Below, piece after piece: positions 5,687 to 25,315 of a DNA stretch of 44,084 bases. The notes under the pieces were generated by a model. That model had not been told where the DNA came from, made no database searches, and saw nothing but the letters and a program-made list of their open reading frames with translations. Each line of letters starts with the position of its first letter. Position 1 is the stretch's first letter. A program made the translations under genes and the position numbers. This DNA is from Quinella sp. 2Q5 (GTDB lineage: Bacteria > Bacillota > Negativicutes > Selenomonadales > Selenomonadaceae), in NCBI GenBank assembly GCA_015206785.1, contig JADEZQ010000013.1:1-44084 (forward strand), in the 5' to 3' direction.

Positions 5687-7883
5687 AACCGAGGACTTCC
5701 AGCAGGTCGTCGGAGCCCGCCTTGACGTCGCCGGTCTTGAGCGGACGAACCGTGCCGTAAGCAGAAGAATTGGTAACGATGAGCGGAGTGGTAACGGGGT
5801 AGCCCGCCTTGTGAATCGCGTCGATGTCGAAGGTGACGAGCAAATCGCCGCGCTTGACTTCCTGACCGTCGGTGACGTGAACTTCAAAGTTCTCGCCGTT
5901 GAGTTTAACGGTGTCGATACCGATATGCATGAGCAGTTCCGCGCCGCCGGGCGTGACCATGCCGATAGCGTGCTTGGTCGGGAAGATAAGAGTAATTGTA
6001 CCGTCGCAGGGCGCAACGAGTTTTCCTTCGGTCGGCTCGACAGCCACACCGTCGCCCATGGCGCGCGAGGCAAATCCGTCGTCGGGTACTTCGTTCATTA
6101 ACATCATACGACCCGTGAGGTGTGCGCCGAAAGTTTCGTCGGGCATCTTGGGCTTCTCTTCTTCAGCCGCCGCAGAGCCGCCGCCGCCGCTTGCGCCTTC
6201 CAAAATCGAGCGGTCAATCTTGCCCGCGCGAATATCTTCGACGAATTCTTCAAAGTTAGCCTTGACGATAGTGACGGACGGACCGTAGATAACTTGGATA
6301 GCGTTGCCCTTAATGACGACGCCGCCCGCGCCCGTGGACTTCAAGATACCTTCGTTGACTTTGGAGCCGTCGACGAGGGTCAAGCGCAGACGCGTTGCGC
6401 AGCAGTCAATTTCGGTGACGTTATCCACGCCGCCGACACCCGTAAGAATCGTCGCAGATTTTTGCTGGTCAGGAGTGAGACTCGCAAGAGCCGCGGAACC
6501 TGCGCCGCCGCCTGCCACGCCGACACCCGTTGCTTTTTGATAATCGGCTTTGGACATCATCTTGATTTCTTCGTCGTCAGCCTCACGACCCGGCGTCTTC
6601 AAATCCCATTTCAGAATGAAAAACTTAAACGTGACGAAGTAGAGGACGGCGTAGACCGCGAAGACCGGCAACATCATCATCCAGTTGGTCTTGGCTTGCC
6701 CGGGCAGGACGCCGTAGAGGATAAAGTCAATCAAGCCGTCGGAGAAGGTGGTGCCCATTGCGATTCCGAGAATGTGGCACGTCGCGAAGGAAAGACCCGC
6801 GTAGAAAACGTGAATCATGAAAAGTTCTTTCGCGAGGAAAAGGAACGTGAATTCGATAGGCTCGGTGATACCCGTGAGGAATGAAGTTAAGCCGACCGAG
6901 AAGAGCAGGGAGCCCGCCGCTTTTTTCTTTTCGGGACGAGCGCAGGTGTACATGGCGAACGCCGCCGCAGGAAGACCCGCCATCATGAACGGGAACTTGC
7001 CCATGAGGAAGCGTGCCGCGTCAACCGAGAAATGCTCGGTGTTGGGCGAGGCAAGTTCTGCGAAGAAAATATTCTGCGCGCCCATGACGGTTTGTCCGTC
7101 GATAACCGCCGTGCCGCCGAGACCCGTCTGCCAGAACGGCAGATAGAAAATGTGGTGCAAGCCGAACGGAATCAGCGCACGTTCACAGCAACCGAAGAAG
7201 AATGTTCCGAAGTAGCCCGCCGCCTGAACGACGCCGCCGAGTGCGAAGATACCGTTTTGAATGAACGGCCAAACGAAATACATGATAACGCCCGTCACGA
7301 TGCCGAAAATCATACAAACAATCGGGACAAAGCGCGTGCCGCCGAAGAACGAGAACGCCGCCGGCAGTTGCATCTTGTAGTAACGGTTACAAAGTTCAGC
7401 CGCGACCAAACCCGTAACGATACCCGCGAAAACGCCCATTTGCAACGTGGTGATACCAAGCACGGACGTTATCGCACCTTCCTTGACGCTCTCATCAATC
7501 GAGCCGTCGGCATGAATCGAGCCGTCGAGTCCAAGGAAAACGTGAATCGTCGTGAGCATAACCAGATAAAAAATTGCTGCGCCAAGGACGGCGATACCTT
7601 TTTCTTTTTTCGCCATGCCCAAAGCAACCGCCAACGCGAAGATCAACGGCAGGTTGCCGAAGATTGCGCCGCCGACGTTTGACAAAATCAGCATGAAGCT
7701 GAACAGTCCGCCGCCGGGGTGAAGTACACTTTCCAGACCGTATGCCGCGATTGTCGTCGGGTTTGAGAACGACGCACCGATACCCAACAAGACGCCCGCG
7801 AACGGCAATACGGCAATCGGCAGGAACAGCGACTTACCGATCTGTTGCGCTACGGCAAATGCCGAAGAGCCTCCTTCACTCAT
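5685..7883 (-). CDS. ptsG: PTS glucose-type permease EIICBA
   Basis: This 732-residue protein imports and phosphorylates a hexose at the cytoplasmic membrane. The EIIC domain comes first; its RALIPFGLHHIFYLPF motif fits glucose permeases better than NagE. Next is EIIB with phosphorylatable Cys near residue 494 (EIDCCATRLRL). After an Ala/Gly/Glu linker comes EIIA of the glucose class with the active His near residue 650 (LLMHIGIDTV). The start is the ATG at 7883, 7 nt after AAGGAGG; an upstream in-frame start at 7907 lacks a ribosome site. The gene is monocistronic, with its own promoter, a ~140-nt leader containing a hairpin, and a downstream terminator. Glucose is the best guess; glucosamine or GlcNAc cannot be excluded. 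Confidence 0.92.
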   Translation of the reverse strand: MSEGGSSAFAVAQQIGKSLFLPIAVLPFAGVLLGIGASFSNPTTIAAYGLESVLHPGGGLFSFMLILSNVGGAIFGNLPLIFALAVALGMAKKEKGIAVLGAAIFYLVMLTTIHVFLGLDGSIHADGSIDESVKEGAITSVLGITTLQMGVFAGIVTGLVAAELCNRYYKMQLPAAFSFFGGTRFVPIVCMIFGIVTGVIMYFVWPFIQNGIFALGGVVQAAGYFGTFFFGCCERALIPFGLHHIFYLPFWQTGLGGTAVIDGQTVMGAQNIFFAELASPNTEHFSVDAARFLMGKFPFMMAGLPAAAFAMYTCARPEKKKAAGSLLFSVGLTSFLTGITEPIEFTFLFLAKELFMIHVFYAGLSFATCHILGIAMGTTFSDGLIDFILYGVLPGQAKTNWMMMLPVFAVYAVLYFVTFKFFILKWDLKTPGREADDEEIKMMSKADYQKATGVGVAGGGAGSAALASLTPDQQKSATILTGVGGVDNVTEIDCCATRLRLTLVDGSKVNEGILKSTGAGGVVIKGNAIQVIYGPSVTIVKANFEEFVEDIRAGKIDRSILEGASGGGGSAAAEEEKPKMPDETFGAHLTGRMMLMNEVPDDGFASRAMGDGVAVEPTEGKLVAPCDGTITLIFPTKHAIGMVTPGGAELLMHIGIDTVKLNGENFEVHVTDGQEVKRGDLLVTFDIDAIHKAGYPVTTPLIVTNSSAYGTVRPLKTGDVKAGSDDLLEVLG

Positions 7884-7983
7884 GTTATAACCTCCTTGCC
7901 AGTGCAAAAAATTACTCCCGATGAAACTTCTCCTTCCCGTTGTATTCTATTGGAGTCGGGATAAAACCGCCCCTTGCTCGCAA

Positions 7984-8015
7984 AAGGAGGACGCTTTCGC
8001 TGAAGCCTCCTCCTT
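7984..8015 (-). promoter_or_regulatory. Leader hairpin upstream of ptsG (terminator or attenuator)
   Basis: On the minus strand AAGGAGGA pairs perfectly with TCCTCCTT, and an inner GCTT/AAGC stem extends the helix; CCTTTTGCG follows. It lies 60-90 nt downstream of the stop of the NYN gene and 10-40 nt inside the predicted ptsG transcript. It could end the NYN transcript or act as an attenuator. The U-run is short (four), so terminator strength is uncertain. Confidence 0.5.
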
Positions 8016-8031
8016 GCAAGATATTTTCAAA

Positions 8032-8060
8032 ATCATACACGACGACGCGGCGTTTGTCTA
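8032..8060 (-). promoter_or_regulatory. Predicted ptsG promoter
   Basis: On the minus strand TAGACA (8060-8055) and TATGAT (8037-8032) are spaced by 17 nt, each one mismatch from consensus. Transcription from here gives a leader of about 140 nt ahead of ptsG. Confidence 0.6.
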
Positions 8061-8074
8061 CCGATTGGGGCAAG

Positions 8075-9421
8075 TTATTTTTCGGACTTGCAACGATAGC
8101 TGACGATTTGCCCAACCTTCTGCACCTCATAGAGCTTCGGGAAGGCGCAGACAAATTTTTGCAGGGTGCCGTGCCCCGAATCTTTGATGCTGAGTTTTTT
8201 TTGCAGAATGGCGGCACCCGCTCGGCTCAATTGAGCGAAGCCTCTGTCGTCGCCGTAAGTCTCGGCGGTCTCGCGCAAGACGCTATGCACCTGTCCCAAA
8301 CCGTCGGCGGGCTTTTTGGCATCGACTGCGCGGCAACGAATGAAAATTTTCTGCTCGTCCCTGTGCAATTCGTAAACGTCGGGGAATGCCTCGATGAACC
8401 GTTGAAGTGAACCGAAGCCCAAGTCTTGAACAGCGAAGCCGAGATTTTTCCTGACGATATAACTGCCGACCGAACACAGATTTGCAAAGCCCGTGCCGTC
8501 CGCATGAAGTGATGTAGCCTCGTGCAGGGCGCAATGCATTTGGCGGAGCTTGTCGCCGTCAACGACGGGTACAGCCTTGCGTTCGGTCGTTCGGCAACGA
8601 TAGGTGAAGCGTTGACCGTTTTCGTCCTGGCGAGTTTCGTACAGCTTCGGATAGGCGGCGATGAAATCTTTCAGTTGCCCGTAGCCGAAGTCGTGAACGG
8701 TGAAGCTGAAATTTTTCTTGCGCACGTCTTGCCTGGCGTGATTTAGCGACGAGAAACCCTCGGCGTTGCCGTGAAGATCGGCAGACTCGTGCAGGGCGTC
8801 GTGCATCTGCTGAATCTTTTTATCGCGCTCGCTCTGTAGCTTTCGTTCCTCTAAGGAAATGACCTTGGGGTTTGTCTTGACGGGCGGCTCAACAGATTCT
8901 ACCTGGTCGAACAGCGACATCTGCACGGAAGATTTTTTTGCGGGCGCGTGAGAAGTTTTTTCCTCGGCTATCGGCGCAACGGGCTTGCTCTCCGTCAGCG
9001 TGTTGAGCTCGATGAACTCATTGCAGGCGGCGCGGAAGGCGTTGGAGGCGTTGGCATTGCCAAGACCGATGATGTTCTTGTCGCCCTCGCGCAAGCGGAT
9101 GACCAGCGGCGTAAAATCGCTGTCGTTGGAAACTATCGCGAAGACTTCCACCTTGCCTTCGTGAAGCACGTCCATAGCGTCAATCGTCAGGGACATATCG
9201 GTTGCGTTCTTGCCCGTGGTGAAGTCGGGCTGTTGCACGGCACGCAAGGAATAGTTCAAGATGGCGTCGTTCCAGCCGCGCAGGGTGAGCTTTTCCCAGT
9301 TGCCGTAAATTCGGCGGATAGAAAGTTCCCCGCGGCTTGAAAGCATCTCGATAATCTGCTTGCCGTATTTGGGTGATACGTTGTCTGCGTCGATGAAGAG
9401 CGCGATTTTTTTCGTCGTCAT
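8075..9421 (-). CDS. NYN-domain (LabA/DUF88-like) protein with three LOTUS/OST-HTH repeats
   Basis: A 448-residue protein. Residues 1-140 form an NYN (PIN-like) nuclease fold with the expected acidic residues: D11 and D13 (FIDADN), D75 (KNATDMSL), D81, D100 and D102 (SNDSDFTPL). After a linker come three ~73-residue repeats at about 205-277, 292-365 and 375-445. Each has the pattern H(x)LxExA...GF..L......K......G.G.L..F..A.P..YE......RC, matching LOTUS/OST-HTH modules that bind RNA. The start at 9421 is set by GAGG 8 nt upstream. It is co-transcribed with the small gene 16 nt upstream. The family suggests an RNA-directed nuclease or RNA-binding regulator; its target is unknown. Confidence 0.85.
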   Translation of the reverse strand: MTTKKIALFIDADNVSPKYGKQIIEMLSSRGELSIRRIYGNWEKLTLRGWNDAILNYSLRAVQQPDFTTGKNATDMSLTIDAMDVLHEGKVEVFAIVSNDSDFTPLVIRLREGDKNIIGLGNANASNAFRAACNEFIELNTLTESKPVAPIAEEKTSHAPAKKSSVQMSLFDQVESVEPPVKTNPKVISLEERKLQSERDKKIQQMHDALHESADLHGNAEGFSSLNHARQDVRKKNFSFTVHDFGYGQLKDFIAAYPKLYETRQDENGQRFTYRCRTTERKAVPVVDGDKLRQMHCALHEATSLHADGTGFANLCSVGSYIVRKNLGFAVQDLGFGSLQRFIEAFPDVYELHRDEQKIFIRCRAVDAKKPADGLGQVHSVLRETAETYGDDRGFAQLSRAGAAILQKKLSIKDSGHGTLQKFVCAFPKLYEVQKVGQIVSYRCKSEK

Positions 9422-9437
9422 TGCTGAAACCTCGAAG

Positions 9438-9713
9438 TCAATAGCATTCCAAGGCACGAATGGCACCGAACTGAATGAACTCGCTTGCCGAAACGGGGTC
9501 GCCTTCGATTATGGCGAACTCGATGGTTGGGATATTCTCCGCGGCGATTTGGATACGCTCTGCGCCGTATTCCTCCTTGACTTTTTTCCACAGGTTTTTG
9601 CGGGAAGTCTTGTTGTCTTTGTACACGGCGTTGTTATAGAAAATATTCATGGACGCTTCGCTCTTGTCGGCGTCGCAGTTGAAGAAGACGAACACTTTGC
9701 CGGGTTTTGCCAT
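9438..9713 (-). CDS. Small conserved-looking protein of unknown function (91 aa)
   Basis: The start ATG has AAGGAGA 9 nt upstream and a consensus-like promoter. The product is soluble, with no signal or membrane segment, and is mixed alpha/beta in appearance: an opening strand KVFVFFNCD, a central charged stretch rich in Lys/Asn/Glu (SRKNLWKKVKEEYGAERIQ) and a C-terminal helix. I do not recognise the family. It is the first gene of an operon with the NYN-LOTUS protein 16 nt downstream, so the two may act together, possibly as partner or regulator. Confidence 0.75.
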   Translation of the reverse strand: MAKPGKVFVFFNCDADKSEASMNIFYNNAVYKDNKTSRKNLWKKVKEEYGAERIQIAAENIPTIEFAIIEGDPVSASEFIQFGAIRALECY

Positions 9714-9752
9714 AAATAAAATCTCCTTTCGATTATTTCGGGCACCGCGGGA

Positions 9753-9781
9753 ATTATAACCAATCTCGTGTCGTTTCGCAA
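9753..9781 (-). promoter_or_regulatory. Promoter of the small-protein / NYN-LOTUS operon
   Basis: On the minus strand TTGCGA (9781-9776) and a perfect TATAAT (9758-9753) are spaced by 17 nt, about 40 nt upstream of the ATG at 9713. It diverges from the promoter of the SDR operon. Confidence 0.75.
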
Positions 9782-9801
9782 TGAAAAGTTTTTCGGCGAC
9801 A

Positions 9802-10717: not shown

Positions 10718-11773
10718 ATGGACATCACTCGGCGCAATTTACTCAAGCTGGCGGGCATCGCGGCAGTCAGTGCTACAGTCGGTCAATTCGACACGGCGCA
10801 TGCCGCGGCAAAAGTTCCCAAGCTCAAAGCCGCGCCCGTCGTCGGCAGCAAGAACGTCACGGGCACGAAATACACGGGCTCGGCGGCTAAGGTCTACTTC
10901 ACCGACAAGCTCGACGCCGCACACCTCATCAAGCTCTACGACATCATAAGCGGAGAAATTTTCGGCAAGGTCGGCATTAAGCTCCACACGGGCGAACCAC
11001 ACGGTCCGAACATCTTGCCGCGGGACTGGGTGCAAAAGTTTCAGGCGCACATCCCCAACAGCAACATCATCGAGACGAACACGATGTATGACGGCGCACG
11101 CTACACCACCGAAGGTCACCGCGAGACGCTCAAGGTCAACGGCTGGACGTTCTGCCCCGTCGACATCATGGACGAGGACGGCTCGGTCAATCTGCCCGTC
11201 AACGGCGGCAAACACCTTAGCGAAGTGGCAATGGGCGCGCACCTCGTCGATTATGATTCGGTCGTCGTTTTGACACACTTCAAGGGGCACGCAATGGGCG
11301 GCTTCGGCGGCTCGTTGAAGAACATTGCAATCGGCATGGCAAGCGGGCAACTGGGCAAGCGGCAAGTCCACGGCTACACCCTGCCCGAAATGCCGCCGCC
11401 CGGTCCCGCGTGGTTTGACGGCGTGAGCATGCCCCTGCAAGGAAAATTCATGGAGCTTATGGCAGACAGCGGCAAGGCGACCTGCGATCACTTCGGCAAG
11501 CGAATCGTCTTCCTCAACGTGATGCGGCGCATGAGTGTCGACTGCGACTGCGCGGGAACCTCAGCGAAGGAACCGACGATGAAGGACGTTGGGATTCTCG
11601 CCTCGACTGATATCCTTGCGATTGACCAGGCGTGCTGTGATTTCGTTTACTCTGCCGCGGACAGCTCCGACCTTCGCGAACGCATAGAAAGCCGCAACGG
11701 TCTGCACCAGCTGCAGGCAATGCGCGAATTGAACATGGGCAACCCGCAATACGAACTGATTGGAGTTGATTGA
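10718..11773 (+). CDS. Tat-exported DUF362 protein
   Basis: A 351-residue protein with a twin-arginine signal (TRRNLLKLAG, residues 4-13) and a likely cleavage site after AHA near residue 29. The mature part is a DUF362-type domain; no classical CxxCxxCxxxC ferredoxin motif is present. Conserved cysteines occur in FCPVDIMD, ATCDHF, DCDCAG and QACCDF, and most also occur in the paralogue at 21859-22797. Tat export implies folding, and probably cofactor loading, in the cytoplasm. It follows the SDR gene by 12 nt with GAGGAGG upstream, and overlaps the signals of the next gene. DUF362 proteins are generally linked to Fe-S or redox functions; the precise activity is unknown. Confidence 0.85.
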   Translation: MDITRRNLLKLAGIAAVSATVGQFDTAHAAAKVPKLKAAPVVGSKNVTGTKYTGSAAKVYFTDKLDAAHLIKLYDIISGEIFGKVGIKLHTGEPHGPNILPRDWVQKFQAHIPNSNIIETNTMYDGARYTTEGHRETLKVNGWTFCPVDIMDEDGSVNLPVNGGKHLSEVAMGAHLVDYDSVVVLTHFKGHAMGGFGGSLKNIAIGMASGQLGKRQVHGYTLPEMPPPGPAWFDGVSMPLQGKFMELMADSGKATCDHFGKRIVFLNVMRRMSVDCDCAGTSAKEPTMKDVGILASTDILAIDQACCDFVYSAADSSDLRERIESRNGLHQLQAMRELNMGNPQYELIGVD

Positions 11774-17457: not shown

Positions 17458-17504
17458 TCGCGGCAGTGAAAGCTACATGAAAAAAATCTGCAGAGGTGAA
17501 CGTT

Positions 17505-18269
17505 TTGGTATCACGTGCGAAAAAATTTTTGGCGGCGGCAATTGTCGGCGCGTTTGCAATTTCCATGCCCGCGGCGGCGGACGCTGCCATCAAGAGGATT
17601 CACGACCCGAAGGTTGCGACCAAGACCGTTGAGCGAAAACTTCCGACGCTGCGTGAACGCGTGGAAGAGACGATGAGCAAGTTTAAGCCCGCCGAGGAAG
17701 TTCAGGACTTCGACGCCATTGACGGGACGCAAAGTTTCTTCGTGCCCGAAACCGTTTCCACGTCCGACACGTCGATTATCGGCACGCCGCTGGCGACTCA
17801 GCAGCAGTGCGTTAAATATCTCCTGCGCAACAATCCGCATCCGAACTTGAGCGTTTCTGCCGAAGAGATCGTCGCCTACTATTACGAGGAGGGTCGCCGC
17901 GAAGGAATTCGTCCCGACGTGGCGTTTGCGCAGGCTCTCAAGGAAACGGGCTTCTTCCGTTACGGCGGGGACGTCGTGCCCGAACAGAACAATTATTGCG
18001 GGCTCGGCACAACCGGCGGCGGCGTCCGCGGAGCATACTTCGCCACGGCGCAACTCGGTGTTCGTGCGCACATTCAGCACCTGCTGTCATATACTTCCAC
18101 CCGCCAACCCTCAACCCCCGTCGTCGACCCGCGCTATGGTCTCGTCCGTCAAACTTACGGCTCGCGCACGCTCGGCACTTGGCAAGATTTGAACGGACGC
18201 TGGGCAGTTCCGGGCAGATATTACGGGCAAGAGATTCTGTCCATGTTCAGAGACATTTTGATCCAGTAA
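17505..18269 (+). CDS. Secreted glucosaminidase-domain protein
   Basis: A 254-residue protein with a Sec signal peptide (basic start, hydrophobic core, cleavage near ADA|AIK at residue 27), a spacer, then a glucosaminidase (GH73-like) domain from about residue 95. The likely catalytic Glu is E147 in FAQALKETGFFRYGG, followed by NNYCGLGTTGGG. Such enzymes cut the N-acetylglucosaminyl bond of peptidoglycan. The TTG start is chosen because AGAGGTGA lies just upstream at proper spacing and the in-frame GTG at 17496 overlaps it. The gene appears monocistronic. Confidence 0.85.
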   Translation: MVSRAKKFLAAAIVGAFAISMPAAADAAIKRIHDPKVATKTVERKLPTLRERVEETMSKFKPAEEVQDFDAIDGTQSFFVPETVSTSDTSIIGTPLATQQQCVKYLLRNNPHPNLSVSAEEIVAYYYEEGRREGIRPDVAFAQALKETGFFRYGGDVVPEQNNYCGLGTTGGGVRGAYFATAQLGVRAHIQHLLSYTSTRQPSTPVVDPRYGLVRQTYGSRTLGTWQDLNGRWAVPGRYYGQEILSMFRDILIQ

Positions 18270-18334
18270 GGTATTTGACGAGCGGTCTATCTTCAACTGC
18301 TCGGTGTCGGTAAAAATTTTCCGTGGTGATTCCT

Positions 18335-19669
18335 ATGTCAGAAAACAAAATGCAGCGCGGCTTGAAGAACCGTCACCTGCAAATGATTGCGCTGGGCACC
18401 GCCGTCGGCACGGGTCTTTTCTATGGCTCGACCGCGACGATTGCGCTGGCAGGTCCCGCCGTATCGTTGAGCTATCTCATCGGCGGGATAATTATTTTCC
18501 TCATCGTGCGTATGCTCGGCGAGATGAGCGTCGAAGAACCCGTCAGCGGCTCGTTCAGCTATTACGCTTCGAAGTATTGGGGCAAGTTCCCCGGTTTCCT
18601 TGCGGGCTGGAACTATTGGTTCCTGTATATCCTCGTGAGCATGGCGGAGCTGTCGGCAGTGTCAATCTATCTGGGCTATTGGTTCCCCGACCTGCCCAAA
18701 TGGATAGGCGTGCTGGCGTGCCTGGTCATCATCACCGCCGTCAATCTCGTCACCGTCAGCGCGTACGGCGAAATCGAATTCTGGATGGCGGGCATAAAAA
18801 TTTCCGCGATAATCGGAATGATTCTTATCGGCTCGTATTACATCGCCACGAACCCCAACCCGTTCCCGATGAATTTCCATTACCTTTGGGATCACGGCGG
18901 CTTCTTCCCTAACGGCGTGGAAGGAATGCTCATGTCGCTGGCGCCCGTGCTGTTCAGCTTCGGCGGCATTGAACTGATCGGCATCACCGCGGGCGAGGCG
19001 CAGAATCCCGAAAAGACCATTCCCCGCGCCGTCAACCAAGTTATCTACCGCATACTGATCTTCTACGTCGGCACCATGATTGTGCTGATGTCGCTGTGGC
19101 CGTGGAATATGGTCGGCAAAGAGGCGAGCCCCTTCGTGCAGATTTTCGAGGGCGCGGGCTTCCCTGCGACGGCGAGCATTTTGAACTTCGTGGTGCTCAC
19201 GGCGGCGGTCAGCGTCTACAACTCGGCAATCTATTCCAATTCGCGCATGCTGTTCGGTTTGGCAAAGAGCGGCAACGCTCCGAAGTTCTTCGAGAAACTT
19301 TCAGCGCGCGGCGTCCCCGTCAACGGCATCCTCGTCTCCTCGGCGATAACGCTATTGGCGGCGGTCTTGAACGCCGTGTTGCCCGACGAAGCGTTCATGT
19401 ATATGATGGCAATCGTCACGGGCGCGGTCGTCATCAGCTGGGCAATGATCGTCCTGACGCATATCAAGTTCCGTCAACACTGCGCAAAGGACGGCATCGT
19501 CCCCAAGTTCAAGGCGTTGCTGTATCCCGCGGCGAATTATTTTTGTCTGGCGTTCCTGGCAATGATTCTGGTCATCATGGCTTTGATGGACGAGATGCGC
19601 CCGGCGGTAATCGTTATGCCCCTTTGGATTTTGGCGATATGGATTTTCTATCGGTCAAAAAGAAGGTGA
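18335..19669 (+). CDS. APC-family amino acid permease
   Basis: A 444-residue transporter with about 12 membrane segments. The N-terminal signature is RGLKNRHLQMIALGTAVGTGLFYGS, followed by AGPAVSLSYLIGG and FSFGGIELIGITAGEAQNPEK, typical of the AAT group of APC permeases. Substrate specificity cannot be read from sequence. The ATG at 18335 follows GGTGAT. It ends 4 bp before the condensation-domain gene, whose ribosome site AAGGTGA overlaps its stop codon, so the two should be co-translated. Confidence 0.9.
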   Translation: MSENKMQRGLKNRHLQMIALGTAVGTGLFYGSTATIALAGPAVSLSYLIGGIIIFLIVRMLGEMSVEEPVSGSFSYYASKYWGKFPGFLAGWNYWFLYILVSMAELSAVSIYLGYWFPDLPKWIGVLACLVIITAVNLVTVSAYGEIEFWMAGIKISAIIGMILIGSYYIATNPNPFPMNFHYLWDHGGFFPNGVEGMLMSLAPVLFSFGGIELIGITAGEAQNPEKTIPRAVNQVIYRILIFYVGTMIVLMSLWPWNMVGKEASPFVQIFEGAGFPATASILNFVVLTAAVSVYNSAIYSNSRMLFGLAKSGNAPKFFEKLSARGVPVNGILVSSAITLLAAVLNAVLPDEAFMYMMAIVTGAVVISWAMIVLTHIKFRQHCAKDGIVPKFKALLYPAANYFCLAFLAMILVIMALMDEMRPAVIVMPLWILAIWIFYRSKRR

Positions 19670-19673
19670 CGTT

Positions 19674-21482
19674 ATGCAATTGACACGCGACGAGCAAAAA
19701 GTTTTGGACAGCGTCTACGGGCGACAGGTCGGCGGCTTGGACGGCTATAACCCCAACAAACTTGACGCGGTGCTTGAGCTGAACGAACACGAGCAAAAAT
19801 TTTTCGCGGGCAAGAATTTCGTGTCGGCTCACTTCTTCGCGCAGACGCTCTACAAAGTTCGCGGCAACATCAGCCCGATAACATTCAACCGCGCCGTCAA
19901 TCGCCTGCTCAACGAAACGGACAACCTTCGCGCAAATTTCTGCAACGTCGGCACGCGCACGCTCAAAGTCATTTGCCCCGCCGAGAACGTCAAAGCCGAA
20001 GTCATCTTCCGCAACCTGACGCAGATCGACCCCGACGACCTCAACGACGAGTTCCGCAAGATTTTGGCGGCAGACATGCGCCGCGACGTCGATATCCGCC
20101 ACGCCCCGCTGATTCGGTTCGCGGTCTACAGGACGGGCGACGACGAGTTTGCCGTGCTCATCACCGCCGCGCAGATTGTTGCCGATAGCTTCGACGTTGC
20201 AAAGTTTTTCGCGAACGTCACGGGCACGAGCTTTCAAGCCGCGCCGAAAATTTCCGACGACCTGTCGCCGAATAATCAAGACGCCATCCGCGACTATTGG
20301 GCGAAGGTTCTTGATCATGCGCCGAGAGCCGCCTCGTTGCCCTTCGAGAGCGCGAGCGTCGGCACGTATCGGCAGAAGGCATTCCACACGACCATTGACG
20401 TCGATATCTTGAGCGACCTGCGTCGGCGTGCGCAATCCAACCGCGTGATGTTGACGGCGATTCTGCAGAGCGCGTGGGGCTTCATGTTGCAACTGACCAA
20501 CCGCCGCCGCGACGTACTGTTCTGCCAGATACTTTCCGCCGACGACGCGACGCTCAACGTCATTCCCGTGCGCGTCATAAGCGACAACGATCAAACCGTC
20601 GAACAGACCGTCCGCAAACAATTTCGCCAGCTCGTCGTGTCACAGCCATACAGCCGCGTCGATTGGACGACCCTGGGTGATCTTTCGGGCGGCAGAAAAC
20701 TTTTCGACCACTTCCTGAGCTTCAAGGAGTTTCAGTCCGCCGAGCTCAATTACGTCGCCGCCGAAGCCTCCGAACGCGGCACTGTCGTCGCGAAAAATTC
20801 TTGGGACGCTCGCGGCATGAAACTCGGCGCGTACTTCCGCTACTCCGAAAAAAATTTGTCAATCGGCTTCCTGTACGATGAGCGGCAATTTCGCACGCGC
20901 GGCGTTGAACGTTTGTGCGAGCTGTACGGATTGATTCTGCGGCAGATGTTGAGCGACTGGAACGCAAAATTTACCGACTTCATGTCGCGGCTGGGCAAGC
21001 GCGTCGATTTGCTTGAGGACGACGAAAAAATTTCCCGCGAGGACGAACGCCTGAGGATTCGCGATTTCCTGTCGCAGTTGCCGATTCTGCAGGGACGCTT
21101 TGCAGGGACGATTGAACTGTTCGAAAACCAAGCCGAGCTCCTCACGCTCTACGAAGGCGACAGAATTTCCGGCGACGCGCTCAAAAAATTTTTCGTCTTC
21201 GTCGTCGACGGCAAACTCGTTCGCAATGCTGACACGGGCGACGGCTGGTACGACCCGCTTGATGTCGTCGGCAAGAACGCGTTCATCAACCCCGCGAACT
21301 TTTTGGCGCGGCAAAGGCTCACGCTTTCGGCGGAAGTCCTCACCGAGCGGGCGGAGCTGTTGACGATACCCCGCGACGTTTTGACCGACGCCTTGCGAAA
21401 AAATTCCGAGGTCGCCGAGTCGCTGATGACGTACGCGCTTGAGCAGATGGAACGCTATCAATTGCTCTGGTTGCAGTCGTGA
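19674..21482 (+). CDS. Degenerate condensation-domain protein with C-terminal cNMP-binding-like domain
   Basis: A 602-residue protein. Residues about 30-450 resemble an NRPS condensation (C) domain, but the catalytic HHxxxDG motif reads AQIVADS (residues 166-172): both His and the Gly are lost, so acyl-transfer chemistry is unlikely. Residues about 468-600 resemble a cyclic-nucleotide-binding fold (LYEGDRISGDALKKFFVFVVDGKLV ... VVGKNAFINP ... ELLTIPRDVL), yet the ligand-binding GE is GK. There is no signal peptide. The gene is translationally coupled to the upstream permease and followed by a terminator. I infer a regulatory or binding role connected with transport. The fold assignments are by eye and the function is unknown. 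Confidence 0.7.
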   Translation: MQLTRDEQKVLDSVYGRQVGGLDGYNPNKLDAVLELNEHEQKFFAGKNFVSAHFFAQTLYKVRGNISPITFNRAVNRLLNETDNLRANFCNVGTRTLKVICPAENVKAEVIFRNLTQIDPDDLNDEFRKILAADMRRDVDIRHAPLIRFAVYRTGDDEFAVLITAAQIVADSFDVAKFFANVTGTSFQAAPKISDDLSPNNQDAIRDYWAKVLDHAPRAASLPFESASVGTYRQKAFHTTIDVDILSDLRRRAQSNRVMLTAILQSAWGFMLQLTNRRRDVLFCQILSADDATLNVIPVRVISDNDQTVEQTVRKQFRQLVVSQPYSRVDWTTLGDLSGGRKLFDHFLSFKEFQSAELNYVAAEASERGTVVAKNSWDARGMKLGAYFRYSEKNLSIGFLYDERQFRTRGVERLCELYGLILRQMLSDWNAKFTDFMSRLGKRVDLLEDDEKISREDERLRIRDFLSQLPILQGRFAGTIELFENQAELLTLYEGDRISGDALKKFFVFVVDGKLVRNADTGDGWYDPLDVVGKNAFINPANFLARQRLTLSAEVLTERAELLTIPRDVLTDALRKNSEVAESLMTYALEQMERYQLLWLQS

Positions 21483-21858: not shown

Positions 21859-22797
21859 TCAATCGATTTCAATCAGCTCGTATTGCGGATTGCCCATGAG
21901 CTTTTCAGCCATTGCGCTGAGCTGACGCAGACCGTGACGAGATTCAATGCGTTCCTTCATGTCGTGGCTGTCGGCGGCGGCGTAGATCATATCGGCGCAC
22001 GCCTGGTCGACGGCGAGGATGTCGGTCGAGACGGCGATGCCGATGTCCTTCATTGTCGGCTCGGCGGCAGTGACGCCCGCGCAGTCGCAGTCAACGCTGA
22101 TTCGGCGCATGACGTTGATGAAGACGATGTGCTTGCCGAAGTAGTCGCAGGTCGCCTTCGCGCTGTCAGCCATAAGCTCCATGAAATATTCTTTGTCGGG
22201 CCATTCAAGATAATTGGCGGGGACGTTGTCGGGGTCGACGCCGTGAACTTGCGCCTTGCCCAGGTGACCCGACGCGTTGCCGATGCCGATGTTTTTCATT
22301 GAGCCGCCGAAGCCGCCCATTGCGTGCCCCTTGAAGTGCGTCAGAACAATCAGCGAATCATAATCGACGAGATGTGCGCCCATTGCCACTTCCTTGAGAT
22401 GGAAGCCGTTGTTGACGGGCAGATTGACGGTTTTGTCGTCCTCGTCCATGATGTCGACGGGGCAGAACGTCCAGCCGTTGACCTTGAGCGTCTCGCGGTG
22501 ACCTTCGGTGGTGTAGCGGTCGCCTTCATAAAGCGTGTTGCATTCGACGATTGCCGAGTTGGGAACCTGAGCTTGGAACTCACGAACCATATCCCGCGGC
22601 AAAATGTTCGGACCATGCTTCTCGCCGGTGTGCAGCTTGATGGCAACCTTGCCGTAGATGCTCTCGTTGATGAGCTTGTAAAGCTTAATCAGGTGCGCGG
22701 CGTCGATGGTGCGCGTGAAATAAACTTTCGCCGCGGTGCCCGTGTAGTTGGTGCCGGTGACGTTGCGGCTGCCGACGACGGGTGCTTGTATCGCCAT
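21859..22797 (-). CDS. Cytoplasmic DUF362 protein (paralogue of 10718-11773)
   Basis: A 312-residue protein that aligns along its whole length with the mature part of the Tat-exported DUF362 protein and is identical at most positions, including HTGE.HGPNILPRD, GHRETLKVNGWTFCPVDIMDED and LTHFKGHAMGGFGGS. It begins almost exactly where the other's signal peptide ends and has no export signal. The cysteines of FCPVD, ATCD, DCDCAG and DQAC are shared. GGAGG lies 7 nt before the ATG. Its activity is unknown; the pair suggests the same reaction on either side of the membrane. Confidence 0.85.
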   Translation of the reverse strand: MAIQAPVVGSRNVTGTNYTGTAAKVYFTRTIDAAHLIKLYKLINESIYGKVAIKLHTGEKHGPNILPRDMVREFQAQVPNSAIVECNTLYEGDRYTTEGHRETLKVNGWTFCPVDIMDEDDKTVNLPVNNGFHLKEVAMGAHLVDYDSLIVLTHFKGHAMGGFGGSMKNIGIGNASGHLGKAQVHGVDPDNVPANYLEWPDKEYFMELMADSAKATCDYFGKHIVFINVMRRISVDCDCAGVTAAEPTMKDIGIAVSTDILAVDQACADMIYAAADSHDMKERIESRHGLRQLSAMAEKLMGNPQYELIEID

Positions 22798-22936: not shown

Positions 22937-25315
22937 GTGACGAAGATTTTAACGGGCGTACGGATATCCGAGGACATTGCCGAGCTTTTTGACGGCGGCA
23001 AAAAAAATTTCACCGAGCGGCTGAAAAGTTTCCTACTCAACTGCGACAGCGAACGGGCGGGGCTTGACGCTTACGACGAAAATATTTTGTTCGACCCCAA
23101 CCGCGGGCATTGGGACTTGTGGGACATCGACCGAGGCGGCGGCGAGGAGGTTGCCTTGGACGAAAATTTTGTCGCGCGCAATCCTGCCGACGACGTTTCC
23201 ACCGGCATCGTCGCCATAGACTTCGGCACGAGCCGCACCGTCGTCGTCTATGAGAACGAACATTCGCAGATCATTCCGTTGCAGGTGGGCAGCGGCTCTT
23301 ATCGCGGCGGAATAAATTTTTCTGCCAACTACGAAAACCCGACCGTCATTCAGTTCATCGACATCGAAAGTTTTTTGACGGCTTACTATTGGCGCGAGGG
23401 CAGACCCTTCACGCGCTGGGCGGACGTCAAAGTTTCTCACGCGGCGTTCGACAACCTGACTGCCGGCGGCTCCGAAAAGTTTTACTCGTTCCTGACCGAC
23501 CTGAAGTATTGGTGCGGATCGAAGATGCAGTTCATGTTGCGCGACGAGAAAAAATTTATCACGCAGCTTGCGCCGTTCGATGAGCTTGCCGAAGACGAGA
23601 TCAACCCGCTGGAAATTTACGCGTACTATCTGGGGCTGTTCATCAACAACATGCAACAGGAGCGGCACGTCTTCCTGAACTACATCCTGTCGTTTCCCGT
23701 GACGTATGAGCGAGCCATCCGCGAGAAAATGCGCCGGTGCTTCGAACGCGGGCTGAAGAAGTCTCTGCCGACGGCTCTGCTGTCGAACGAAGCGGCGATG
23801 AAAAAATTTTCCGTGCGCGAGGGTGCAAGCGAGGCTGCGGCTTACGCGATAACCGCGCTGCTTGAATACGGCTTTGACCCCGCGGGCGAGGAAGAAAATT
23901 ATTACGCGGTGTTCGACTTCGGCGGCGGCACCACGGATTTTGATTTCGGTTTCCTGCGCGAATCCTCCAACGACCGCTACGACTATCTGCTGGTGCATTT
24001 CGGCGAGAACGGCGACAGAACTTTGGGCGGAGAAAATCTCTTGAAGCTCCTGGCGTTCGAGCTGTTCAAGGCGAATCAAGACGCTCTGCTCAACGTCGAG
24101 GGCGGCAAGATTCCTTTCACGTGGGCGGCGGACAAAATCAACTTCGCGGGCTCCGAGGCGTTGATTAAAGATTCGCAGGAAGCTCACGCCAACATTCACG
24201 CGCTGGTTGAGGCACTACGCCCCGTGTGGGAAGCTCCGGCTTCCGAGGCGGCGGCAAAAATTTTGTCGGGCGGCACAATCGAAGTCAACCTTTTCCGCGA
24301 CGACGGACGCCCCGTAAAAAATTTCCCGCTGAATGTTTCCATCGACCTGCAAGAAATTCTTCGCAACCGAATCCGCGCGGGCATCAAAAATTTTTTCATC
24401 TCTATGAAGGAAGCCTTCGACAAGAACAGCAAGAACTCCCTGCGCAAAATCAAATCCCTGCGCGACATCGACGAAGTCTCAATCTTCCTTGCGGGCAACT
24501 CGTCAAAATCTCCGCTGGTCAACGAGCTTTTCAACGAGTATCTGACGCCGACCGAAGACACACGCCTTGCCGACGACGAGAATCCGTTCGTCAGCGGCAG
24601 ACTCAAGCACGGCTACGAGCTCAAGGACGATTACTTCATGCAGGGCGGTAGCATCTATCGTCGCGACGGCAACGGGCTTGAGATTTGGCTCGGCGACATG
24701 GACAACGCCAACGACCAGATCGTCTTGAGCGAGACCGTCAAAAAAATTCCCGTCGACCGCGCCAACGAGAAGTCCCCCGCCGATATCCTCTTCGGCTTCA
24801 CGGGCAAAGCTCCGCGCTTCAAGATTTATCCCGCGCTGGGAACTGATTCTGCTCACGAGATTCAATCGGCACGCGGCGTGGAAATTCGCACCGACATGAG
24901 CGCACCCACCGGCAAGACGGGCGTCGCCTTTGGGCTGTTGCTCAGCCGAGCGGGCGGACAGATTCAGACCAAACACATCACGCCCGACCCCGAACGCACT
25001 CCCTTCGCCTGTTACGTCGGCCGCAACAAGAAACGCAAGTTCCGCACCGTCATCGACCGCACCACCAAGTTCGACGTGTGGTATCCCTTCATCGACGCCA
25101 GCGACAGCTTCGACATCTACTACACCAACCTGCCCGAAGCCGTCTCAAACAACATGAACATCGGCAAGGCAAAGCGCATCACCGTCAACCTGGCCGCGCC
25201 CGACGCCGACGCCACCGTTTACATTCGCGCCGTCAAGAGCAACGTCATCGAATACGCCATCGCCCGCGACGAATCCGAAATCACCGACGCCGCCGAGCAA
25301 ATTGAGCTGGTTTAA
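22937..25315 (+). CDS. Divergent Hsp70/actin-fold ATPase
   Basis: A 792-residue protein with an extra ~88-residue N-terminal segment before the actin-like ATPase core. Phosphate-1 motif GIVAIDFGTSRTVVVYE is near residues 90-106, phosphate-2 motif VFDFGGGTTDFDF near 323-335, and the adenosine motif IFLAGNSSKSPLV near 516-528. The C-terminal ~250 residues do not look like the DnaK substrate-binding domain and carry no linker motif of the DLLLLDV type. It is therefore not the housekeeping DnaK, and no grpE or dnaJ is nearby. Similar large DnaK-like proteins occur as orphans in many bacteria with unknown clients. A GTG start with GGGGAG upstream and a strong promoter are present. Confidence 0.82.
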   Translation: MTKILTGVRISEDIAELFDGGKKNFTERLKSFLLNCDSERAGLDAYDENILFDPNRGHWDLWDIDRGGGEEVALDENFVARNPADDVSTGIVAIDFGTSRTVVVYENEHSQIIPLQVGSGSYRGGINFSANYENPTVIQFIDIESFLTAYYWREGRPFTRWADVKVSHAAFDNLTAGGSEKFYSFLTDLKYWCGSKMQFMLRDEKKFITQLAPFDELAEDEINPLEIYAYYLGLFINNMQQERHVFLNYILSFPVTYERAIREKMRRCFERGLKKSLPTALLSNEAAMKKFSVREGASEAAAYAITALLEYGFDPAGEEENYYAVFDFGGGTTDFDFGFLRESSNDRYDYLLVHFGENGDRTLGGENLLKLLAFELFKANQDALLNVEGGKIPFTWAADKINFAGSEALIKDSQEAHANIHALVEALRPVWEAPASEAAAKILSGGTIEVNLFRDDGRPVKNFPLNVSIDLQEILRNRIRAGIKNFFISMKEAFDKNSKNSLRKIKSLRDIDEVSIFLAGNSSKSPLVNELFNEYLTPTEDTRLADDENPFVSGRLKHGYELKDDYFMQGGSIYRRDGNGLEIWLGDMDNANDQIVLSETVKKIPVDRANEKSPADILFGFTGKAPRFKIYPALGTDSAHEIQSARGVEIRTDMSAPTGKTGVAFGLLLSRAGGQIQTKHITPDPERTPFACYVGRNKKRKFRTVIDRTTKFDVWYPFIDASDSFDIYYTNLPEAVSNNMNIGKAKRITVNLAAPDADATVYIRAVKSNVIEYAIARDESEITDAAEQIELV

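Follow-up and report, generated by a model that had tools for sequence, protein, structure and literature searches.

A condensation-like protein that has lost its HHxxxDG motif, fused to a cNMP-binding-like domain, is conserved in Selenomonadaceae and is a candidate component of partner-switching systems

The window considered here, the whole 44,084-nucleotide stretch of contig JADEZQ010000013.1 from Quinella sp. 2Q5, contains an intact reading frame with an ATG start that encodes a protein of 602 residues, in which a pseudo-condensation (C) domain is fused to a domain resembling the cNMP-binding (CNB) fold (Table 1). We refer to this gene, its product, and the family to which they belong as C-CNB. 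The gene directly upstream encodes an APC amino acid permease, for which the nearest NCBIfam models are the phenylalanine transporter and AroP, both matched below their cut-offs. The permease stop codon (TGA, 19667-19669) is followed by a gap of only 4 bp and is abutted by a ribosome-binding-like sequence, as the first-pass annotation of this DNA had reported in essence; the short gap makes a shared transcript of the two genes likely in the window. On the 3' side the minus strand carries a tRNA-Ala gene and then a DUF362 gene.

Table 1. Positions of the C-CNB gene, its parts and its upstream neighbours in the window.
Feature	Position	Strand	Basis and remarks
Glucosaminidase-domain gene (PF01832)	17496-18269	+	Pfam; its cluster is upstream in 4 of 4 permease-pair loci
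APC amino acid permease gene (PF00324)	18323-19669	+	Upstream neighbour of the C-CNB gene; not a conserved partner
Ribosome-binding-like AGAAGG	19661-19666	+	Abuts the permease stop codon; from sequence
C-CNB gene, 602 aa	19674-21482	+	Pseudo-condensation domain fused to CNB-like domain; Pfam, AlphaFold models and profile alignment
Condensation fold, residues about 31-440	19764-20993	+	
Former HHxxxDG motif, AQIVADS, residues 166-172	20169-20189	+	Family and profile alignments
CNB-like domain, residues about 486-602	21129-21479	+	AlphaFold with Foldseek/VIA-align; lowest mean entropy of five segments compared
Family signature EGDRI, residues 494-498	21153-21167	+	Gly495 and Asp496 in 51 of 51 rows

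The DUF362 gene that directly follows the tRNA-Ala gene beside C-CNB (21859-22797, minus strand) is one of two in the window, the other lying at 10718-11773 on the plus strand. Further downstream, a frame at 22937-25315 (plus strand) encodes a 792-residue protein with an Hsp70/actin-like stretch recognizable by eye (GIVAIDFGTSRTVVVYENE) and no Pfam match up to an E-value of 1.

A single-sequence adenylation (A) domain HMM found no match in any window ORF of at least 60 aa, and a Pfam scan of 14 neighbour proteins, the set to which the carrier search was confined, returned neither an A nor a PP-binding domain, in agreement with the earlier remark that no adenylation or carrier domain is nearby. 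By these searches A and carrier domains are absent from the C-CNB protein and its neighbourhood in the window; they are found next to the gene in a distant relative described below. The genome from which the window comes, which is 79% complete, contains one other Condensation gene, on another contig.

The N-terminal part of the protein matches the Pfam Condensation model (PF00668) with an E-value of 1.1e-25 and 90.7 bits, and a two-lobed C fold is supported by the AlphaFold model with Foldseek/VIA-align, by Pfam and by profile alignment; both fold and sequence profile are those of the C domains of TycB, bacitracin synthase 3 and SrfA-C. In the profile alignment, HHILMDG of tyrocidine synthase 2 falls on AQIVADS in the window protein and on the family consensus a-q-l-i-a-e-s, which places Gln167 at the position of the catalytic histidine. 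Among 51 aligned family rows, the window protein included, position 167 is Gln in 38, Glu in six, Arg in three, Lys in two, Tyr in one, Gly in one and His in none, so that the second His of HHxxxDG is missing throughout; position 171 is Asp in 19 rows and position 172 is Gly in a single row. The entropies of positions 167, 171 and 172 fall at the 33rd, 80th and 92nd percentiles of all positions in these rows, while Arg148, Trp209, Trp268 and His346 are invariant. The proposal that this is a C domain with a lost catalytic His thus survives both structural checks that could have overturned it, since the C fold is predicted and no intact His lies in register. Compared with TycB-type C domains, C-CNB has the His replaced, the Asp and Gly unconserved, no A or PCP domain in the protein, and a CNB domain added. 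We consider the loss of the HHxxxDG motif in the family well supported. The His is retained in four of 20 more distant rows (G314, G235b, G236b and G235a), together with the Asp in G235b and G236b and without it in G235a, and its loss was therefore not one clean event.

An altered active site that does without the His, using Gln167 or another residue, could in principle keep C-CNB an enzyme. The predominance of Gln at the former His position and the invariance of Arg148 and Trp209 would fit such a site, and activity has been described for C domains whose motif deviates, for example OaaC with its (D/H)HxxxDS (PMC13142362). However, 13 of the 51 rows have Glu, Arg, Lys, Tyr or Gly at position 167, variability is comparatively high in the Asp and Gly columns, and in the OaaC class the second His is present in more than 99% of sequences and the Asp is highly conserved (PMC13142362). 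We therefore regard an enzyme with an altered active site as unlikely. OaaC itself, a free-standing C domain that forms fatty acid amides and is active with an A domain and an ACP, resembles C-CNB in being a stand-alone C protein of a gut bacterium and in a motif that often ends in DS, but its class keeps the His (>99%), and the part of the report at hand mentions no CNB domain (PMC13142362). An enzyme of the OaaC type was rejected for C-CNB because none of the 51 rows has the His, as against more than 99% in the OaaC class (PMC13142362), and only 19 have the Asp.

Since a structure search with the whole chain fills up with C-domain matches, the C-terminal part was folded alone; its AlphaFold model, compared by Foldseek/VIA-align, has the CNB fold, and the Pfam cNMP_binding model (PF00027) matches the protein with 20.0 bits, under its cut-off of 27.5. 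In CNB domains that bind cAMP or cGMP the phosphate is held by a cassette of the form GE...R. The first-pass annotation had recognized a degenerate cNMP-like domain here, which stands, and had read the cassette GE as GK, presumably Gly533-Lys534, which does not: in the profile alignment to GlxR the GE falls on Asn539-Pro540. Position 539 is Asn in all 51 rows, position 540 is Glu in 26, Pro in 21 and Asp in four, and the column of the canonical cassette Arg (549) is variable, so that no GE...R cassette is present in the window protein or conserved in the family. With the cassette Gly replaced by Asn in 51 of 51 rows and the Arg column variable in this alignment, a canonical cAMP sensor was rejected. 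At the neighbouring position 548, Arg or Lys is found in 44 of the 51 rows, and from this pattern of residues the domain may bind a ligand other than cAMP or cGMP. The last CNB helix also forms the C-terminus of the protein, which leaves no room for a DNA-binding domain behind it; in this, as in its cassette Asn and variable Arg column, C-CNB differs from CNB proteins of the CRP/FNR type such as GlxR and HcpR.

The family is conserved well beyond the window. The window protein itself was matched in 37 of 60 genomes, its own included and partial matches to NRPS proteins counted, and a family profile was matched in 59 of 66 genomes of the genus (some of these being fragments at contig ends) and in 130 of 380 genomes of the class (with fragments and some partial NRPS matches included). 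A scan of named genomes gave 109 relatives, of which 80 were kept; these come from Quinella, Selenomonas, Anaerovibrio and other Selenomonadaceae, largely from ruminant-gut MAGs. In an even sample of 398 genomes of the phylum, matches at an E-value of 1e-15 were found in 10: six belong to the same family and have full-length members, and four are partial matches to frames of 1,277-6,412 aa that are NRPS-like by size. Full-length members were thus confined to the family of the window among the 398 genomes sampled. Tandem copies of the gene occur in some loci (L031, 7079-10880; L075, 8085-11821; L078).

Across the 51 sequences, which go down to 33% identity, 24 positions are invariant, and dN/dS for the 14 closest pairs is 0.08-0.26, with the qualification that these pairs overlap in their members and that dS is partly greater than 1. 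C-CNB is therefore more than one decayed gene. The lost catalytic motif and the varied position of the gene in the genome could be expected of a decaying relic without function; against this stand the presence of the gene in nearly all genomes of the genus, albeit in some as fragments at contig ends, the invariant positions and above all the dN/dS values, which largely refute such a reading, and we can give it hardly any credence. Purifying selection together with the loss of the motif implies that the function for which C-CNB is kept is not HHxxxDG chemistry and is probably not the binding of cAMP either. The protein is real, conserved and unusual in its architecture. Our literature search, which covered little of the subscription journals, returned no description of it, and a term search of the Quinella genome paper (PMC9585023) gave no match.

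The first-pass annotation had proposed that this pseudo-enzyme and pseudo-sensor is a new kind of transport regulator or ligand-binding partner, coupled to the adjacent APC permease. The 4-bp gap, and hence the likely shared transcript in the window, speaks for such a partnership, and so does the fact that the two genes are also neighbours in three other genomes of the genus. However, a close match to the permease (E-value up to 1e-100) is present in 60 of the 66 genus genomes and both genes in 53, and they are adjacent in only four of these (gaps of 4, 114, 144 and 414 bp), a count from which the contig ends of fragmented MAGs could hide some pairs. The same four are the only ones with the permease within 500 bp upstream among the 72 of 81 loci that have more than 1.5 kb of upstream sequence, with two more at 6.4 kb. 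Seven genomes have the permease without C-CNB, two of them 99-100% complete (G003 and G006); presence of the two genes is not associated across the 66 genomes (Fisher p 0.55); and a permease HMM matched no locus outside the genus among 99 loci. The pair does exist outside this genome, in three relatives, so that the proposal narrowly escapes refutation by absence of the pair elsewhere; all four loci belong to a single synteny block with the glucosaminidase gene upstream. The structural half of the proposal is thus upheld and its transporter half is wrong or specific to this lineage: there is no conserved gene pair, the permease was ruled out as functional partner by the rarity of adjacency, the permease-only genomes and its absence from loci outside the genus, and a permease regulator or ligand-binding partner appears very unlikely.

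The origin of the family is indicated by a distant relative from another family of the class (locus L171, genome G314), in which the gene order is a 2919-aa NRPS, a PP-binding protein, C-CNB and a 4'-phosphopantetheinyl transferase. The C-CNB protein of this locus has 694 residues, matches the Condensation and cNMP models with 264 and 31.4 bits, both above the Pfam cut-offs, and retains an intact His in the motif PHITFDG. A quick tree places it as the basal branch of the C-CNB clade (SH-aLRT 96); this tree was calculated with no mixture model and with a single NRPS row as its root, carries a long-branch warning, and is used here only for this grouping and for the closeness of L202 to L103, two loci considered below. 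Other outlying genomes have the motifs PQMIADG (G037) and PQIIADG and PQLIEDN (G048), which are plausible intermediates in the loss of the motif. Taken together, an NRPS origin of the family is well supported. A CNB domain on an NRPS protein is also seen outside this family, since class genome G051 encodes an NRPS (L050, 7272-19499, minus strand) that ends in an NAD_binding_4 reductase followed by a CNB domain above the Pfam cut-off.

To describe the gene neighbourhoods we defined a module of SpoIIE phosphatase, RsbW-like kinase and STAS antagonist, and dropped before counting the loci with a flank shorter than 3 kb (25 of 81 loci and three of 18 extra loci). A SpoIIE, STAS or RsbW gene lies within 3 kb of C-CNB in 19 of the 56 loci with both flanks longer than 3 kb, and 37 have none. 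By genus membership as we assigned it, such a gene is present in 14 of 17 well-flanked loci outside the genus versus five of 39 inside (L087, L102, L105, L123 and L129); the remaining 34 genus loci, and the window's own genome, are without one. The 15 well-flanked extra loci, which were picked by hand for diversity and not sampled, include six with a module gene in this range; kept out of the extras were L172 (an NRPS), L181 (no HMM match), L182 and L186 (short or truncated), and L187 and L189 (contig ends). In L187 the opposite strand carries a MATE gene. Over 99 loci, 62 module matches were found in 28, 60 of them within 3 kb and all 62 on the strand of the C-CNB gene; the context HMMs were made from few sequences, partly from the same loci that were then scanned, and the loci are not independent, as L120/L122 and L127/L128 are near-identical strains and the Anaerovibrio order represents one inherited arrangement.

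Pfam confirms the module neighbours in five loci (L121, L202, L103, L174 and L102). In L121 and other Anaerovibrio loci the order by Pfam is RsbW-like HATPase, STAS, dCache-HAMP-SpoIIE and C-CNB. In Selenomonas ruminantium S137 (L103) and in L202, which lies close to it in the quick tree, the order is MATE, SpoIIE, RsbW, C-CNB, STAS and a gene we call c27; in L103 this is an operon-like run with small gaps or overlaps between genes, and the MATE proteins of both loci carry a HATPase_c_2 domain above the cut-off. An RsbW-type gene is directly upstream of C-CNB in L174, L175 and L184, and a STAS gene is directly downstream in L177 and directly upstream in L183, L087 and L105. The c27 protein, of about 207 residues (L202, 10907-11527; L103, 12175-12798), is conserved after STAS in the Selenomonas switch operons and has no Pfam match.

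In the genome of the window a STAS, RsbW and dCache-HAMP-SpoIIE operon is present on another contig (G000:C23), unlinked to C-CNB. This genome of 1.8 Mb has three SpoIIE and two HATPase_c_2 matches, so chance proximity to such genes should be rare, with the proviso that the loci are related and the counts are not independent events. Across the 66 genus genomes, C-CNB and a strong STAS match occur together in 55, C-CNB only in three, STAS only in three and neither in five (Fisher p 3e-4), where the E-value that defines a strong STAS match was chosen with the list already in view and G206, whose match reached only E 3.4e-5, was scored as having no C-CNB. A tree-aware comparison of this co-occurrence was not significant: of five independent pairs, on average 2.2 pointed the same way, 0.1 the opposite way and 2.7 showed no difference. 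Other contexts of C-CNB also exist, since in L188 (C-CNB gene at 6879-9784, minus strand) a sigma-70-type gene follows 563 bp downstream on the same strand, with a DnaK-like gene further on and no module gene.

We propose that C-CNB is an NRPS-derived pseudo-enzyme that has been recruited as a non-catalytic part of the SpoIIE-STAS-RsbW switch, and give this reading a probability of roughly one half. A signalling role, which we infer from gene neighbourhoods, is the best-supported proposal, held at about the same even odds. The family would consist of the Negativicutes descendants of a stand-alone NRPS condensation protein with a C-terminal CNB domain, with the basal relative, in an NRPS cluster with carrier protein and phosphopantetheinyl transferase and with PHITFDG kept, at the base of the clade. 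Both folds of C-CNB are predicted with good confidence. In the Selenomonadaceae the canonical motif has disappeared while the fold is conserved, the CNB domain most of all, and the majority of Selenomonas and Anaerovibrio loci have C-CNB co-directional with genes for dCache-HAMP-SpoIIE, an RsbW-like kinase, STAS and sometimes MATE, often in operon-like fashion. The C fold, no longer forming amide bonds, may still bind an acyl ligand, free or on a carrier, or else the STAS or RsbW proteins; the CNB domain may bind a small ligand or relay a conformational change; and C-CNB could be the cytoplasmic target or adaptor of the switch, acting in trans in the window's genome because the STAS-RsbW-SpoIIE operon is there on another contig. 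More specifically, and tentatively, the pocket of the C fold for acyl groups or carrier proteins might persist as a sensor whose state is relayed by the CNB domain, with the SpoIIE-controlled STAS and RsbW proteins binding C-CNB in place of a sigma factor. If this were true, C-CNB would be a non-transcriptional target of a partner switch and, as such, fixed throughout a family of rumen bacteria. The phosphatase, antagonist and kinase genes of RsbU/RsbV/RsbW switches are likewise found beside many C-CNB members; in contrast to those switches, C-CNB would presumably replace the target or adaptor, and a sigma-70-type gene was seen near the module-less locus L188.

X domains dock carrier proteins or recruit tailoring enzymes. 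The dead C domain of C-CNB could in the same manner be an accessory of a biosynthetic pathway, NRPS-like or for fatty acid amides, with the switch only timing that pathway. This would agree with the ancestry of the family, in a protein of an NRPS cluster that has a free-standing PP-binding protein next to it, with the MATE genes found in 11 of the 99 loci, and with further free-standing C proteins that these genomes encode close to MATE genes, among them four STAS-C fusions with an intact motif and an A-PP-C neighbour in S137. However, the window has no A domain by HMM and its genome, at 79% completeness, only the one further Condensation gene, and in a search of 20 loci, a set apart from the 80 loci L051-L130, the A-domain HMM matched only L171 and L172; we consider a biosynthetic accessory rather unlikely.

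A published parallel to the preferred signalling role comes from Methanobrevibacter ruminantium, in which one NRPS gene is surrounded by genes for two serine phosphatases, an anti-sigma-factor antagonist and MatE, and a third cluster combines a PPTase with a phosphatase, an antagonist and a kinase (PMC2812497). Condensation proteins are accompanied there, too, by serine phosphatases, antagonists and MATE genes, but the synthetase has A, T and release domains (PMC2812497), whereas the C part of C-CNB stands alone, has lost its motif and is fused to a CNB domain. Such phosphatase, antagonist and MATE genes around an NRPS have been interpreted as regulators of peptide production (PMC2812497). Because the C-CNB motif is lost and yet the family is conserved, and is kept with the switch in most Selenomonas and Anaerovibrio loci, our data suggest that the link between the condensation fold and partner switching can be physical and not merely regulatory. 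They would also warn annotators that C-CNB genes in rumen genomes should not be counted as biosynthetic.

All 10 genomes searched have Condensation matches besides the C-CNB gene, and the six free-standing C-gene loci that we examined all have motifs of the YHxxMDG type. Four of these proteins are STAS-condensation fusions by Pfam, with an intact YHxIMDG, beside or close to MATE genes (L142, 8541-10145; L143, 8412-10007; L144, 8252-9844; L145, 5847-7442), and such fusions occur in both Anaerovibrio and Selenomonas genomes. Pfam-confirmed MATE genes are present on five of the six loci, with a HATPase_c_2 match that is weak in two and above the cut-off in one; downstream of the STAS-C gene of S. 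ruminantium S137 come genes for an A-PP-C protein and a MATE-HATPase protein. The STAS-C/MATE loci and the M. ruminantium clusters together suggest that condensation proteins, partner switching and MATE transport are more widely associated, and that the C-CNB family is a branch in which the motif was lost. MATE proteins with a C-terminal, RsbW-like HATPase_c_2 domain above the Pfam cut-off are encoded at L202 (4303-6045), L103 (5548-7302) and L145 (423-2204), and possibly represent a transporter fused to a switch kinase.
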